Part shown: piece by piece, positions 842 through 32,037 of the stretch
Position numbering within the stretch: position 1 is the first letter of the stretch
Layout of the letters: every line of letters starts with the position of its first letter
Virus record (IMG/VR): IMGVR_UViG_3300028809_000040
Coordinates: 1-36,674 of that record
DNA: 36,674 nucleotides
Direction: 5' to 3' (one strand)
Source: a virus
Made by a program: the position numbers and the translations under genes
The notes under the pieces: generated by a model
Database searches by the model: none
What the model was told of the DNA's origin: nothing
What the model saw: only the letters and a program-made list of their open reading frames with translations

Positions 842-3415
842 CTATGAGGCCGCTTCGAGGATCTTCGGATCCCAGTTGGCGATCTGGTGCCCCTCCAACT
901 CGATGGCGTCACCCCACCGGTGCCCAACTTTGCAGTCAGCCACGATCGGAATGTCCACATGGAGGTCGAACCACTCCTCCAGGGGGAGGTTCTCCATGAC
1001 CTCCTTGACCATCGGAAGTACCACACCCATCTCGGGTGCTGGCACCTCCATGTTGAGGGCGTCGTGGACCGTGCCGATGCTTCGAGCCTGGAGGCCCATC
1101 TCACGGAACTTCTGGTGCAGGATCACCAAGGAAATGAGGATCATGTCCGAGGCGAACGACTGGACCGGCGAGTTGATCGCCTGACGCTCCGCTTCGGCCT
1201 TGACCTCTCGATCCGGCGAGTAGATGTCAGGCAGGTGACGCACGCGTCCTAGCGGCGACTGTACGCGTCCGTACTTAGCGACCATCGCCCTCTGTCGACG
1301 ATGCCAGACGAGAAGCTCCGGGAACTGAGCAAAGAAGGCCTTACGGAATGCCTTCGCCTCGTCATCGGTGACGCGGAGCCCGTAGTTGTTCCAGGCTGTG
1401 TCGATGTACTTCATCCACTGCATTCCGTACAGGAAGCCGAAGTTCACCGACTTGGCCTTCTTACGCTCCTCCTTGGTGACGAGGTGAGCCGGCTTGCCCG
1501 TCATCTGCATAGCCATGGTCATGTGGATGTCCTGGCCGGTCTGGTACAGGTACTTCATGGTCGGCTCGTTGGCGAGGAAGGCAGCCACGCGGAGTTCAAT
1601 CTGGCTGTAGTCGAACTCCACGAAGTACCAGCCAGGCTGGGCACCGAACAGGCCACGGATGAACTTGTCCCGCGGCACCTGCTGGAGGTTGACCCCGCGG
1701 ACCTGTTTCTTGGCGGAGATCTTCTCCCCGTCGTTCTCCTTGCCCGACGAGAGGCGGCCAGTCGTCGTGCCGTGGAGCTTGAAGGTGGTGTGGATGCGGT
1801 CGTCGTCGTCAATGAGCTCCAGGTAGGCCGCAAAGAAGCTGGAGCAGTACTTGTTCCACTTCACGCGGTCCAGCAGGAGCTGGGCGATGGGATGATGTTC
1901 GGCCAACTCCATCATGACGCCTTCGGCCACCGAGGGGTCGCCGGGCCGGCCGTCGTCCTTCTCCTTGCCTCGTCGGATGACGGGCAGCCCGAGGTGGTCG
2001 AACAGGAGCCAACGCAGGAAGTTGGACGGGTTGAAGTTGACCTCCTTGAGCCCGTGCCCCTCAGGCACATATTCCATGATCTTGGCGTCCACCTCGGCGA
2101 GCTGGCGCACCGCTTCCTTGTGACGCTCCACGAGGCGTTCGCGGTCGGTCCATACCCCGCGCCGCTCAATGCCCGTGAACTCGTTGGCGGAGGGCATGTA
2201 GAACCGGTTGAAGATGCGGTCCAGCGCGGGCTGTTCCTTGAGCTGCCGACGGAACAGACGGTACAGGTGGTAGGTGTACCAGGTGTCCAGGCCGTTGTAC
2301 TCCAGGACCTCCATGATGGGAGTCTTGAGGAGCTCCTTGGTCTCGATGGCCCAGTTGGGCACACCAAGCTCCATGTGAGCCAGCTCCTTGAGAGACTTCC
2401 GCCTGTTCTCTTCCAGGAGGTGAGCCGCCAGCATGGTGTCAAACGTGAGGTAGCGGTTCACACCCCACTGTCGGAGCCAGCGGTTATCGAACTTGCCGTT
2501 ATGGGCGATGGACACCCGGATACGACAGAACACCCGGCGGATGAACTCCAGGATCCGCTCCCAGTTGGAGCGCCACGGCGACTCCGGGTGGAACAGCGGC
2601 AGGGCCCAGCACGAGAGCTTCCGGTCCTTGCTCACCAAGGTGAAGGCAATGGACACGATCTTCGAGGACGGGTCCTTCTCCAGGAAGCCCGGATGGTCCG
2701 AGGCCGACTCGATGTCGTACGACACCACGTCCGCATTCTCCAACGCGGCCTTGAGTGCGCGGAGCGTGTCCTTGTCCAGGACGTATCGGATCCTCTTGGG
2801 CGGCTTGACCACAGCCGCGCCGTCTTTGCCGTTGACCTTGGCGGCGAAGAACTTAAGGTCCGCCATGAACCCGGAATACTGACCCGGGTTGCGCTTCACG
2901 GCGTTGTGGGCGAGGGTCGGCACGGCGATGAGCGGCTGGGAGTGGATCACCTTCCCGTCCCGCTCGACGGTTCCCGTGCCGGCGATCTCGTACTCCTTGG
3001 AGCGGTACTTGGTGATCCCGGACTTCCCGAGCGTCGCCTGGAGAGCCTCGTTACCCATGACGAGTACGTACCGCACCGTGTCGGGCAGGAGGGAAAGCTC
3101 CTGCTGGAGGTACGGTGCACAGGCCTTGATGACCGTCCTCGTGGGAGTTGCATCCCAGGTGCGACATTTGACCGCCCCGGTGAAGACTCCCTCGGTGGGA
3201 TTCAGCCCGACCTCTTCGAGGTACTGAGAAAGCTCCTGGAACGCCTTCTCGGACGGCGGGAACTTCCCGACGACTGCATACCTCGGCGCAGTGTTCGGCG
3301 TAGCCTGAGCGGTCATACAGACGTCCTTACTGGTCGCCTGAGCGCTCATGACGCAGAGGTCGCACGAAGGATCGCGCACCGCTGCGGCGATGAGGGGTAG
3401 TGGTTTCAGTGGCAT
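842..3415 (-). CDS. DNA polymerase I family (PolA) with N-terminal uracil-DNA-glycosylase-like domain
   Basis: 857 residues, the likely replicative polymerase. Residues 1-190 resemble family 4 uracil-DNA glycosylase. Cys18, Cys21, Cys84 and Cys99 match the spacing of its 4Fe-4S ligands. The catalytic GExPG loop has become GKFPPSEKAF and the later His-Pro is His-Asn, so glycosylase activity is doubtful. A 3'-5' exonuclease domain follows (YDIES, HNGKFDNRW, YNGLD, the DEDDy set). The polymerase domain has motif A FDYSQIELR, motif B KKAKSVNFGFLYG and motif C VHDAL, where the usual Glu after His-Asp is Ala. The reading frame is open upstream to 3883, but that part overlaps the deaminase in another frame. 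ATG 3415 is chosen because a TATGAT -10 lies exactly 6 nt before it. Confidence 0.92.
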   Translation of the reverse strand: MPLKPLPLIAAAVRDPSCDLCVMSAQATSKDVCMTAQATPNTAPRYAVVGKFPPSEKAFQELSQYLEEVGLNPTEGVFTGAVKCRTWDATPTRTVIKACAPYLQQELSLLPDTVRYVLVMGNEALQATLGKSGITKYRSKEYEIAGTGTVERDGKVIHSQPLIAVPTLAHNAVKRNPGQYSGFMADLKFFAAKVNGKDGAAVVKPPKRIRYVLDKDTLRALKAALENADVVSYDIESASDHPGFLEKDPSSKIVSIAFTLVSKDRKLSCWALPLFHPESPWRSNWERILEFIRRVFCRIRVSIAHNGKFDNRWLRQWGVNRYLTFDTMLAAHLLEENRRKSLKELAHMELGVPNWAIETKELLKTPIMEVLEYNGLDTWYTYHLYRLFRRQLKEQPALDRIFNRFYMPSANEFTGIERRGVWTDRERLVERHKEAVRQLAEVDAKIMEYVPEGHGLKEVNFNPSNFLRWLLFDHLGLPVIRRGKEKDDGRPGDPSVAEGVMMELAEHHPIAQLLLDRVKWNKYCSSFFAAYLELIDDDDRIHTTFKLHGTTTGRLSSGKENDGEKISAKKQVRGVNLQQVPRDKFIRGLFGAQPGWYFVEFDYSQIELRVAAFLANEPTMKYLYQTGQDIHMTMAMQMTGKPAHLVTKEERKKAKSVNFGFLYGMQWMKYIDTAWNNYGLRVTDDEAKAFRKAFFAQFPELLVWHRRQRAMVAKYGRVQSPLGRVRHLPDIYSPDREVKAEAERQAINSPVQSFASDMILISLVILHQKFREMGLQARSIGTVHDALNMEVPAPEMGVVLPMVKEVMENLPLEEWFDLHVDIPIVADCKVGHRWGDAIELEGHQIANWDPKILEAAS

Positions 3416-20965: not shown

Positions 20966-21356
20966 GTACGAGCCGGGCTGGTCGGGAGATCTCCCGTCGG
21001 GTCAGGGGTGTGGGAAGTACACCGACCAGAAGTGTCCGCGCGAAGGCTGTTCGGGCAAGGTCGTTTACAATGGGAACTACTTCTGTGAGCACTGGACCTG
21101 GCGCCCGAGTCGGAAGGTCGACTACGACGCCGGCGAGTGCGACTACGCCCTCCCCCACCCCCAGACCGAGTACCTGGACCGTCTCCTCTCGTGGAACCTG
21201 ACGAGGGAGTGGGAGTGCGAACTGCCGGACTCCATGCACCGGCACACCACCAAGCCCGAGCCGGGCGAAGTGTGCACGATCACCTGGCCCGTGAACGGCG
21301 GCCTGGTGAATGACAAGACCCACCTTGACGGTGGAGAGAGCGAGAGCGACCAGTGA
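20925..21356 (+). CDS. Hypothetical zinc-ribbon protein
   Basis: 143 residues from GTG 20925, with GGAGG about 10 nt before. The segment QGCGKYTDQKCPREGCSGKVVYNGNYFCEHW contains four Cys and a His in a zinc-ribbon arrangement; a Trp/Tyr-rich region follows (DYALPHPQTEYLDRLLSWN). The true start could be further downstream, since the first 20 residues are basic and low in structure. Its stop overlaps the GTG of the ThyX gene. Confidence 0.6.
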   Translation: MPPRTSGTTRRPRKYEPGWSGDLPSGQGCGKYTDQKCPREGCSGKVVYNGNYFCEHWTWRPSRKVDYDAGECDYALPHPQTEYLDRLLSWNLTREWECELPDSMHRHTTKPEPGEVCTITWPVNGGLVNDKTHLDGGESESDQ

Positions 21357-22180
21357 CACCGGCCGAGACGACTCACGAGGGAGCGGACCCCTCGCACGGC
21401 GGGATCACCACACACCGGGGGACACGCGAGAACTGCGCCGGTCCCGACTGTGGACCCGACCGAGGGTTCACGACCTCGGAGATCTCGGCGGAGCTGGTCA
21501 AGAGCGCGGCCACGGACAGCGACGTCCTGTGGTCGGCTCGTGTCTCCACGCTGGGCGAGACCTCGCTGGCCGACCAGTACTCGGGAGAGCTGGCCCCGCG
21601 TGACCGCGGCCTGATCAACTTCCTCATGAGGGACAGGCACGGCACGCCCTTCGAGCACAACTCCATGACCTTCCTGATCAAAGCGCCCATGATGGTGTTC
21701 TGGCAGATGGTCAGGCACCGCGTGGGCTGGTCGTACAACCTGGAGTCCGGGCGATACCGTGAGCTGGGTCTGGAGTTCTACTCTCCCGACCGGGACCGTC
21801 CGCTCCGGCAGGTCGGCAAGCCGGGCGCCTACGAGTACGTGCCGGGCACCGACTACCAGCAGCGTCTGATGTGGCACGAGTTGGAGACCTCGTACGGCCA
21901 GGCGTGGGACTCCTACCAGCGGATGCTGACCGCCGGCATCGCCCGTGAGGTAGCCCGCCTCGTCCTGCCGTTCGGGGTGTACTTCCACGGGTACGCCACA
22001 TGTAACGCGCGGAGCCTCATGCACTTCCTGAGCTTGCGCACGAAGGACGAGGGCGCTACTGTCGTCTCGTCACCTCAGCACGAGATCAACGTGGTGGCCA
22101 ACCAGATGGAGGCCGAGTGGGCCCGGCTCATGCCGGAGACCCACGCCGCCTTCATCCGTAACGGGCGCGTTGCGCCCTGA
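21353..22180 (+). CDS. thyX: Flavin-dependent thymidylate synthase ThyX
   Basis: 275 residues. The ThyX signature is present as RHRVGWSYNLESGRY (121-135), matching RHRxxSxNxxSxRY-type motifs that bind dUMP and FAD. Further family features are HGTPFEHNSMTF (96-107) and the C-terminal CNARSLMHFLSLR, which matches the NARELxHFxxLR motif. The enzyme makes dTMP from dUMP using methylene-tetrahydrofolate and NADPH. The first 40 residues are an unusual extension with CAGPDC, so the real start may be later. It coexists in this phage with two ThyA-fold proteins, which suggests those do something else. Confidence 0.93.
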   Translation: MTPAETTHEGADPSHGGITTHRGTRENCAGPDCGPDRGFTTSEISAELVKSAATDSDVLWSARVSTLGETSLADQYSGELAPRDRGLINFLMRDRHGTPFEHNSMTFLIKAPMMVFWQMVRHRVGWSYNLESGRYRELGLEFYSPDRDRPLRQVGKPGAYEYVPGTDYQQRLMWHELETSYGQAWDSYQRMLTAGIAREVARLVLPFGVYFHGYATCNARSLMHFLSLRTKDEGATVVSSPQHEINVVANQMEAEWARLMPETHAAFIRNGRVAP

Positions 22181-26302: not shown

Positions 26303-27037
26303 ATGATCCACGACGCCATAAGGGCAACGCTCCTTCAACCGTACTCCCACACATTCGTGACGTACGACCTGGAGTTCCTGACGGACGGCACCATGCTGGA
26401 ACTCGTGTCCGCCGGCATGGTGTCCGGCGACGGGCGGAAGTTGTACGTCGTGAACCGTGAGCTGGACGAGCGGAAGCTCCTCACCCACAGCGACGGCTGG
26501 ATGCGGAAGAACGTCTGGCCGCACCTGCCCCTGACCGACCTGCCCGAGAAGCGGGCCGGCGGAAACGGTCTGTATGGGGGCGAGTACATCAAGAAGTGCC
26601 GGTGCGCGCCTGTGCCCGGTACGGGAGCTGGTACGGGCAAGGCGGCGGAGTACTCGTGCTACTGCATGAACGGGCGCCTGGACCGTGACCACCCGGACGT
26701 CCGCCCCATCGGACAGATCCGCCGTCTCGTGTCGGACTTCCTGATGGAGTCGCACCCGGAGGGTGTGGAACTGGACCGCAACAACATCCACATGTGGGCC
26801 TGGTACGGCGCCTATGACCACGTCTGCCTGGTGCAGAGCCTGTGGCAGAACATGGTCGACCTGCCGGCTCACGTCCCCATGCTGACCCACGACCTCAAGT
26901 CGGAGCACATGAGGCTGGGCAGTCCGAAGATCCCCCAGCAGATCGGCACGGAGCACAACGCCCTGGCGGACGCTGAGGGCAACCTGACCAAGGCTCGGTT
27001 CATGGCCGAGCTGGTCGCCAGCCGGAAGGAGCAGTAG
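26303..27037 (+). CDS. DEDDh 3'-5' exonuclease, DUF5051-like
   Basis: 244 residues. The start FVTYDLEFLTDGTMLELVSAGMV contains the D-x-E pair (Asp22, Glu24) and the following strand of a DnaQ/RNase T-type exonuclease. WYGAYDHVCLVQSL supplies the second Asp region, and EHNALADAEGN the His-x4-Asp pair. This layout matches actinobacterial and phage 3'-5' exoribonuclease-like proteins of the DUF5051 type. A Cys-rich insertion (KCRCAPVP, then YSCYCMNG, about residues 96-117) is unusual and may bind metal. Likely acts on RNA in the cytoplasm, substrate unproven. The stop overlaps the start of the Acb2-like gene. Confidence 0.78.
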   Translation: MIHDAIRATLLQPYSHTFVTYDLEFLTDGTMLELVSAGMVSGDGRKLYVVNRELDERKLLTHSDGWMRKNVWPHLPLTDLPEKRAGGNGLYGGEYIKKCRCAPVPGTGAGTGKAAEYSCYCMNGRLDRDHPDVRPIGQIRRLVSDFLMESHPEGVELDRNNIHMWAWYGAYDHVCLVQSLWQNMVDLPAHVPMLTHDLKSEHMRLGSPKIPQQIGTEHNALADAEGNLTKARFMAELVASRKEQ

Positions 27038-27438
27038 TGGGCATGACCCCCGACGACATCCACGACAGGTTCAGCTACCACAAGCCCATGAGCGAGGAAC
27101 GCAGGAACGCGCACGCCGACGTGCGGGACCTCTGCGAGCGTGCGGCCATGAAGCTCGGCCGTATGCTGCCCGAGGGACGAGAAGCCAGCCTGGCCATCAC
27201 CAAGCTGGAGGAGGTCATGTTCTGGGCGAACGCCTCACTGGCGCGAGCCGAGGACCCGGCCGCCGGTCACGCGGAGGTCATCACCGCGAGGCAGAAGGGT
27301 CAACGGGCGTACGCGGCTTACGCCGACGCGACCGGCGGGAAGACCCACGACGGTCGGGACATGCCCGACTGGTCGGGCCTCGGAGACAAGATCCAGGCAG
27401 CGTGGATTGCTGCCGCGACGACGGAGGAGAACAGGTGA
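27037..27438 (+). CDS. Acb2-family cyclic-nucleotide sponge (predicted anti-CBASS) with C-terminal extension
   Basis: 133 residues from GTG 27037 (AAGGAG 5 nt before). Residues 5-72 match the Acb2 family (T4 Vs.4 and relatives): FSYHKP near the start, a charged helix with ERRNAHADVRDLCERAA, then the hallmark REASLAITKLEEVMFWANAS (48-67). Acb2 proteins form hexamers that bind cyclic di- and trinucleotides and so silence CBASS immunity. The C-terminal 60 residues (QRAYAAYADATGG, then MPDWSGLGDKIQAAWIAAA) are an extra helical module, also found on other small phage proteins. The family match is strong; ligand and activity in this phage are inferred. Confidence 0.85.
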   Translation: MGMTPDDIHDRFSYHKPMSEERRNAHADVRDLCERAAMKLGRMLPEGREASLAITKLEEVMFWANASLARAEDPAAGHAEVITARQKGQRAYAAYADATGGKTHDGRDMPDWSGLGDKIQAAWIAAATTEENR

Positions 27439-28379
27439 GCACACGAACCGGCCCGCAGTACTACCCGGGAGCCAACCGTACCTCGTACTGGTACGAGGAC
27501 AACTACCCCGCTTCCGCGATGGAGGTGAACGTCTGTGCGCTCCACACCACCGAGGGTCGCAGCGTGCCGACGTACGGAGGTGGTGCCTCGGCGCCGAACT
27601 TCACCAAGCTGCCCGACTTCAAGAACAAGCGGCTGGCCTCGTACCAGCACTTCCGGGTGGACAGCTCGGCGCGTGCCCTCGTGAACCGGTACGGCGGTGT
27701 CGAGACCAACACGCTCAACGTCGTCCAGGTGGAGCTGGTGGGCACCTGCGACCCCAAGACACGTGATAAGTGGATCCGCGAGGGCCACGTCCAGGACAAG
27801 GACTTCATCTACTGGCCCGAGGCTCCCGAGTGGGCGCTGGACGACCTCGCGGAGTTCCTGGCCTGGCTGCACGAGGAGCACGGCGTCCGCCTCGAAGCAC
27901 CGAGCAAGTGGCCGGCCTACCCCTCGTCGTACGGCAACGGCCAGGGTCAGCGGATGAGCCACTCCGCGTGGAACAACTTCTACGGCGTCTGCGGCCACAT
28001 GCACGTGCCGGAGAACGACCACGGCGACCCCGGGAACATCAAGATCGTATGGCTCCTGGAGCTCGCCAAGCGGAAGCTGGGCGTAGACAAGGACAAGCCG
28101 AACGGTCCGGCTGCTCCGCCCGCGACCAACAAGCCGAAGCCGCCGGCCTTCCCTGGGCGGAAGTACTTCGGGGCTGGGGCCAACAACAAATACGTGACCC
28201 AGCTCGGCACCCAGCTCAAGAAGAAGGGGTTCGGCAAGCACTACAACGTGGGCCCCGGGCCGAAGTGGTCCGACGCCGACCGCCTGAACGTCCGCGACTT
28301 CCAGCGGTCGGATAAGCGCCTCGCCGGCGACGCTGACGGCTACCCCGGCCCGCTCACCTGGCAGCTCCTGTTCTCCTAG
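27435..28379 (+). CDS. Endolysin: N-acetylmuramoyl-L-alanine amidase with peptidoglycan-binding domain
   Basis: 314 residues from GTG 27435, overlapping the previous stop, with GGAGG 7 nt before. The N-terminal amidase-2 domain (30-210) has zinc ligands in CALHTTEG (His37) and GHMHVPENDHGDPG (His190 or His196), a VQVELVG strand (Glu100), and a helix WALDDLAEFLAWLHEEHG typical of the fold. A Pro/Lys-rich linker leads to a C-terminal peptidoglycan-binding repeat ending DADGYPGPLTWQLLF. No signal peptide is present, so release needs a holin; candidates lie at 30168-30778 on the other strand. It cuts the bond between muramic acid and L-alanine. Confidence 0.93.
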   Translation: MSTRTGPQYYPGANRTSYWYEDNYPASAMEVNVCALHTTEGRSVPTYGGGASAPNFTKLPDFKNKRLASYQHFRVDSSARALVNRYGGVETNTLNVVQVELVGTCDPKTRDKWIREGHVQDKDFIYWPEAPEWALDDLAEFLAWLHEEHGVRLEAPSKWPAYPSSYGNGQGQRMSHSAWNNFYGVCGHMHVPENDHGDPGNIKIVWLLELAKRKLGVDKDKPNGPAAPPATNKPKPPAFPGRKYFGAGANNKYVTQLGTQLKKKGFGKHYNVGPGPKWSDADRLNVRDFQRSDKRLAGDADGYPGPLTWQLLFS

Positions 28380-31092: not shown

Positions 31093-32037
31093 CTAGAAGA
31101 ACGTGGTTACGATCACGATGCCGGGGGACCCGTTACCACCGGTGGTGGAGGCGTTGTTGCTGGTGCCGCTTGCAGCCCCACCGCCCCCACCGCCGTAGCC
31201 CGCAGCATTGGTCCCCGTGACGAGTGCGCCGGCAGCGGCGACTCCACGTCCCCCGCCCCCCAGGTGTGACGAGCCGCCGGCGCCGCCCATGCTTACCGCT
31301 CCCGAGGCCGCAGCGCCACCAGCGCCTCCGCTGCCATTGATGGAGAGGTCGGCCACTATCACCTGGGAGGTGGTCGTGCCGCCCGAGATACCAGCGTTGG
31401 TTCCCACTGACCCAGTGGAGCCGCCGCCAGGACCTCCGCTCGCCGATACGTAGGCACCGAACGACGAGGTGGTGCCGCTGCCTCCCGTACCGGTACCCCC
31501 CACACCAGCCGAGCCGACGGTGACAACGACCGACGAGGTGACCGAGTTGGCGGACAGCCAGGACTCGCCATACGCTCCGCCGGCACCTCCACCACCCGCA
31601 CACACCGCACCTGACGCGGTAGCGACACAACCGCCGCCAGCGCCTCCGCCACCTTGAACCTGTACCCGGATCATCCGAGAGCCGCCAGGCTTCTCCCAGG
31701 TGTCTGACTCCGTGAAGTAGCTGACCACCGGATCCTGCTGGACGGAGTCCACCGACCCGATGATGAGGTAGGTGGTGCCCACCGGGATGAGGCAGACGCG
31801 ATGACCGGGCTGGGGATAGTAGCCGGCGACCACCTGGTACCGCTTCTGGCTCACGGTCTTCTCGCCGTCGAACAGGACCCGCGGCATGACGCCGCCGAGA
31901 AAGTCCGATGGGGCGTAGTCGTAGTCCACCCGTCCCATCTTGATCGGCTTATTGGCCGACGAGGCGGGAGCGTTGGCCTGGCCGAAGGCCGCGATGGTGC
32001 GGAGGAAATCATGTCCCTTGCCGCTGGAGCCAGCCAT
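31093..32037 (-). CDS. Tail tip protein with glycine-rich C-terminal domain
   Basis: 314 residues. Residues 1-125 are an ordinary beta-rich structural domain with YYPQPGHRVCLIPVGTTYLI and SYFTESDTWEKPGGSRMIRV, the latter typical of the start of phage tail fibre glycine-rich domains. Residues 125-310 consist almost wholly of Gly, Ala, Ser and Thr, with many GGGGAGG-like runs and an end IVIVTTFF. Such domains in some tail adhesins (for example Salmonella phage S16 gp38) fold as stacked polyglycine II helices that bind receptors. A receptor-binding role is therefore likely but inferred. The start overlaps the preceding stop by one base. Confidence 0.78.
   Translation of the reverse strand: MAGSSGKGHDFLRTIAAFGQANAPASSANKPIKMGRVDYDYAPSDFLGGVMPRVLFDGEKTVSQKRYQVVAGYYPQPGHRVCLIPVGTTYLIIGSVDSVQQDPVVSYFTESDTWEKPGGSRMIRVQVQGGGGAGGGCVATASGAVCAGGGGAGGAYGESWLSANSVTSSVVVTVGSAGVGGTGTGGSGTTSSFGAYVSASGGPGGGSTGSVGTNAGISGGTTTSQVIVADLSINGSGGAGGAAASGAVSMGGAGGSSHLGGGGRGVAAAGALVTGTNAAGYGGGGGGAASGTSNNASTTGGNGSPGIVIVTTFF

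Follow-up and report, generated by a model that had tools for sequence, protein, structure and literature searches.

Descriptions of Acb2-type sponges present them as minimal proteins with a single domain. The sponge function of T4 Vs.4 has been established experimentally, with Y8, H11, K23, R79 and F82 as contact residues, R79 and F82 contacting cGAMP, and with L29, A66, A73 and A77 at the hexamer interface (PMC10097602). Tad1 has the hairpin domain in common with these proteins, and its architecture includes an N-terminal beta-sheet domain (PMC12043709). Among actinophages, Acb2 carriers have been announced for the cluster E mycobacteriophages Xandras/BigBubba and for the Microbacterium phage Statler (PMC11953737, PMC13348362). 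As far as the literature could be searched, we found no tests of sponge function in actinophages.

We analysed a 36,674-nucleotide stretch of viral DNA (IMG/VR record IMGVR_UViG_3300028809_000040; hereafter the window) that carries an acb2-like gene encoding 133 aa. The protein has Pfam family PF24729 in common with Vs.4 (PDB 7uq2) and Pseudomonas p26 (PDB 8h2j/8ixz), but it differs from both in an additional C-terminal domain of 49 residues. Its hairpin loop is shorter than that of Vs.4, with a profile span of 57 residues compared to 77, and it falls in PHROG 1454 whereas Vs.4 is in PHROG 717 (PMC10097602). The sponge half is already known in kind; the novelty lies in what the C-terminal module is.

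The acb2-like gene is coupled to an exonuclease and an endolysin

The acb2-like gene lies at 27037-27438 on the plus strand, with a GTG start and a TGA stop. An in-frame ATG at 27043 (codon 3) is an alternative start; homologues begin at the matching position, and translation may in fact begin there. By direct reading, a probable ribosome-binding site, GGAAGGAG (27024-27031, +), sits within the end of the upstream gene. This upstream gene (26303-27037, +) encodes a 244-aa RNase-AS/Rv2179c-like DEDDh 3'-5' exoribonuclease. Its match to RNase AS, a polyadenylate-specific 3'-exoribonuclease (NF033638), has an E-value of 2.2e-35, yet is below the cut-off, and the Zuko copy is annotated as 'DnaQ-like'. 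In every Zuko-like genome the exonuclease gene accompanies that of the sponge.

The exonuclease TAG stop and the acb2-like GTG start overlap by one base. Downstream, the GTG start of an endolysin gene (27435-28379, +; amidase-like with a PG_bind_siph peptidoglycan-binding domain) overlaps the acb2-like TGA stop, and the last acb2-like codons hold GGAGGAG (27423-27429, +), read directly as the probable endolysin ribosome-binding site. At both ends of the acb2-like gene a start and a stop codon share bases, which bears out the coupling to exonuclease and endolysin proposed in the initial annotation. The endolysin coupling suggests late expression, later than would be expected for a sponge.

The N-terminal half is an Acb2/Tad1-type hairpin

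PF24729 (Acb2_Tad1_hairpin) matches residues 14-70 (27076-27246, +) with 66.4 bits against a curated cut-off of 27 (E = 2.7e-18), and phrog_1454 matches the 133-aa protein with an E-value of 6.8e-24. The Vs.4 sequence from the T4 genome matches the same Pfam model (E = 7.1e-20). PDB entry 9ptq, 'Acb2 homolog 43', is reached with an E-value of 4e-4 when a single sequence is used and 2.4e-9 with a profile. The family invariants R11, F12, R30, E49, E58, E59, W63, A64, N65 and R70 are all kept. Relatives were found by tblastn in 291 phage records, nearly all via the hairpin and mainly from phages of Mycobacterium, Paenibacillus, Gordonia and Streptomyces. Judged by sequence, the protein is a member of the Acb2/Tad1 hairpin family at the domain level, as had been proposed.

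The protein is about 40 residues longer than Vs.4 (88 aa) and Pseudomonas Acb2 (94 aa), as first described, and about 60 longer than its nearest actinophage homologues. The latter (phrog_1454 type, such as Ibantik gp60) have hairpins 43-61% identical to this one with the same invariants, but the aligned members, most of them 69-79 aa long, have no module; their function is an annotation.

When the profile of this branch was compared to PDB, it gave a weak match to Tad1 (E = 0.012), and Vs.4 was absent from the matches at E<=1. A profile comparison against Vs.4 alone was also weak (probability 7%). The motifs quoted in the initial annotation, such as FSYHKP, are present, but they mark out the actinophage branch phrog_1454 and not T4 Vs.4 or PaMx33 Acb2, because Vs.4 is in a different PHROG, the branch profile misses Vs.4, and alanines replace R79 and F82. 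A Foldseek search of PDB with the full-length model returned no Acb2 or Tad1 entry and nothing significant, probably due to the small, helical chain. The full protein also matched ribosomal protein uS2 (E = 0.0058 in NCBIfam and 0.03-0.7 in PDB). We rejected this identity, as the match scored 16 bits against a cut-off of 211 and straddled the domain border.

Ligand-site residues differ from those of T4 Vs.4

We compared the ligand-site and interface residues of Vs.4 to the aligned positions in the window protein. The phosphate-contacting basic residue, K23 in Vs.4 and K26 in p26, is retained as R30, which is invariant in the branch. Also kept are T68 (T55 here) and the alanines A66 and A77 (A53 and A64), while A73 is V60. 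The stacking aromatic Y8 falls on Y14 according to Pfam profile positions or on H15 according to MAFFT, so that an aromatic residue or His may take its place, and the RF.(Y/F)H motif is conserved. H11 is not conserved (M18), nor are R79 and F82, which correspond to A66 and A69. These two residues belong to the Vs.4 dinucleotide pocket and need not define all Acb2 homologues: the proven Acb2 p26 has the R but not the F in these columns. Since R79 and F82 are replaced, we do not claim a Vs.4-type pocket. The near-invariant R48 aligns with p26 R67, which we take to be a cyclic-trinucleotide contact. Retention of R30 together with loss of R79 and F82 points to a messenger specificity that is probably unlike that of T4 Vs.4.

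The fusion of hairpin and module is conserved

We identified four distinct versions of the fusion: the window type, its relative L008 (76% identical), Zuko gp36 and KimJongPhill gp38. A near-identical record (L007) is 100% identical to the window type, and an environmental record (L063) carries a close copy of the KimJongPhill fusion. All four versions sit between an RNase-AS-like exonuclease and an endolysin. The two Zukovirus proteins contain both domains and are 50-53% identical to the window protein over their full length, differing from it in sequence divergence only. The KimJongPhill protein is named 'Acb2/Tad1 hairpin domain-containing protein' in UniProt, and the module is unannotated in both. 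The hairpin-module fusion is real and conserved.

The two halves have diverged at different rates among close relatives. Between the window type and L008, the hairpin is 71% identical and the module 88%; between Zuko and KimJongPhill, the values are 43% and 81%. When the two pairs are compared to each other, identity is about the same for the hairpin (0.49-0.59) and the module (0.50-0.52). NG86 dN/dS between the window type and L008, estimated from few sites, is about 0.36 for the hairpin and about 0.14 for the module. These sequence comparisons indicate that the module is maintained while the hairpin changes faster among close relatives. Faster change may be expected if the hairpin faces an arms race, and hairpin recombination in one lineage may also account for it.

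Other enlarged hairpin proteins were observed. MalagasyRose gp5 (record L184, 572-1159) is a 195-aa Acb2-hairpin protein with a different C-terminal part (W-V-P..H..C-C..GG..VH..DGR); because it is enlarged differently, fusions of the Acb2 hairpin are recurrent. A tRNA-Pyl (cta) is annotated beside this sponge gene (L184:95-179) and is a possible amber-suppressor tRNA. A third enlarged version, of 162 aa (L023:3962-4447), has a low-complexity C-terminal extension.

The C-terminal module resembles a mobile mini-domain

AlphaFold2, run with a 34-sequence alignment, predicts a short helix at residues 5-11, the hairpin helices at 20-43 and 48-70, and then two further helices at 84-98 and 117-132. 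The linker, residues 71-83 (27247-27285, +), is of low confidence (mean pLDDT 63 for residues 71-80), and the extension that follows reaches pLDDT 91-94, mostly above 90. This agrees with the added C-terminal helical module recognised in the initial annotation. The module (residues 84-132; 27286-27432, +) consists of the two helices with an MPDW-containing loop between them. We interpret the C-terminal part as an autonomous, self-folding mini-domain because the module modelled alone from 34 module sequences has a pLDDT of 95.9 and a pTM of 0.79. Foldseek comparison of the module model to PDB gave nothing significant; matches to RNase H and U-box entries (E>2.8) were rejected as noise.

The window's module had no match in a profile search of Pfam and PDB. 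It does match phrog_20502, a family of unknown function (E = 7.3e-7), as do 34 of 34 module sequences. Here the N-terminal 46 positions of phrog_20502 correspond to the C-terminal module of the window protein, and the other phrog_20502 members lack the hairpin; some continue into a different C-terminal domain and the rest have none. The pattern AY.AYG..TG.K...G..MP.W..L.D.IQ.AW.AAA spans about 45 aa; its Y, Y, P, W and A do not vary across the 34 sequences, and these columns are kept in the window's helix-loop-helix.

The module occurs in many settings. It stands alone in proteins of about 54-80 aa, including Kela gp19, Frankenweenie gp27, many IMG/VR contigs and one Streptomyces genome. It is N-terminal in proteins of about 170 aa (phrog_20502 type) and precedes DUF4314 in record L143 (ORF from 1252). 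It is C-terminal to Endonuclease VII plus DUF7768 in L082 (ORF ending at 3126), to a zinc-ribbon-like protein in L098 (a weak match) and to Acb2 hairpins. When one diverged module sequence was searched by tblastn against phages and plasmids, there was no match; therefore, BLAST alone underestimates the size of the family. From this sequence distribution, the module looks like a promiscuous, mobile phage mini-domain that is apparently undescribed.

A probable two-part counter-defence protein

We think it fairly probable that this gene encodes a two-part counter-defence protein, in which an actinophage-type sponge hairpin is joined to a promiscuous adaptor mini-domain. We infer that the N-terminal Acb2/Tad1 hairpin most likely assembles with copies of itself and captures a cyclic nucleotide messenger, which would keep the CBASS of the Streptomyces host, or a related signalling defence, from firing. 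The module, held on a short flexible linker, would most likely be a generic adaptor or an oligomer-supporting element and not a determinant of nucleotide specificity; the evidence for the adaptor role is the promiscuity and conservation of the module. A specific form of this role, in which the module is a general phage adaptor used by several actinophage proteins (for example, docking to host or phage assembly) and keeps the sponge at the site of messenger production or use instead of leaving it free to diffuse, is distinctly unlikely.

The module could instead widen the binding repertoire to a different cyclic nucleotide or capture one dedicated CBASS component, and its conserved fusion in all four Zuko-like versions agrees with such a role. 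However, the module is also found on non-sponge proteins and alone. If it were a dedicated Acb2 partner, the two domains might also co-occur in trans ('Rosetta stone' test). A PF24729 protein was present in 0 of 31 genomes or records that carry the module elsewhere, and the module in 0 of 31 Acb2-only records, in samples where many records are fragments. The module search recovered all four fusion records; the PF24729 search of the 31 module-bearing genomes had no internal positive, and the same search was positive in Streptomyces genomes. With no co-occurrence in either direction, we dropped the dedicated-partner idea. The lack of trans co-occurrence and the unrelated proteins that carry the module argue against a role in nucleotide specificity, as does the stronger constraint on the module than on the hairpin within sister pairs, which is unlike an arms-race specificity element. 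We consider this explanation unlikely, and the suggestion in the initial annotation that the extension alters nucleotide choice finds no support in the distribution of the module; its other suggestion, of an extra partner, may still hold. A related question is whether the hairpin acts like Tad1, binding up messengers of the Thoeris gcADPR type or cyclic trinucleotides in place of CBASS dinucleotides. The branch profile reaches Tad1 and not Vs.4 in PDB, Vs.4 R79 and F82 are missing, and the signature R-E...A..T..EE..(M/L).W.N is common to Tad1 and the window hairpin. Against this, the Tad1 match is weak and the beta-sheet that precedes the hairpin in Tad1 is absent: the AlphaFold2 model has only a short helix there, and the window protein carries a C-terminal alpha mini-domain instead. 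Tad1-like action is decidedly unlikely.

Two further explanations draw on the position of the gene. An accidental fusion, with the module a passenger retained because the gene end holds the endolysin ribosome-binding site and start, fits the GGAGGAG and GTG in the last codons as well as the promiscuity of the module. Yet the module is under purifying selection with its invariant Y, P and W retained, and the endolysin start of L008 lacks an overlap of this kind, making a passenger highly unlikely. Finally, the conserved place directly 5' of the endolysin, with overlapping start and stop codons, would suit a lysis-cassette regulator (of endolysin timing, for example) that only resembles a sponge. 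Genes for related proteins with this hairpin occur in unrelated surroundings, near tRNA, peptidase, endonuclease and terminase genes, as in Ibantik and MalagasyRose, and we regard such a regulator as extremely improbable.

A sponge whose fusion to a shuffled mini-domain is conserved would demonstrate that proteins of this kind can acquire additional functions. We regard the module, a shuffled phage mini-domain that has no name as yet, as the most useful lead. Attached by phages to endonucleases, to DUF4314 proteins and to sponges alike, it looks like a small, undescribed domain worth a family of its own.

Some Streptomyces genomes encode a plausible target

We searched a sample of 199 Streptomyces genomes for a SMODS CD-NTase and found one above the cut-off in 28. 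Therefore, CBASS is available as a target, and with about one in seven sampled species carrying a CD-NTase, actinophage sponges have a plausible one. The Acb2/Tad1 hairpin itself was found in 5 of the 199 genomes, presumably in prophages.

Elsewhere in the window, a ThyX-like thymidylate synthase is encoded at 21353-22180 (phrog_85, E = 9e-58). A glycine-rich tail fibre-like protein (phrog_863) is encoded on the minus strand at 31093-32037, with more small minus-strand genes nearby; the window therefore contains two opposing transcription units.
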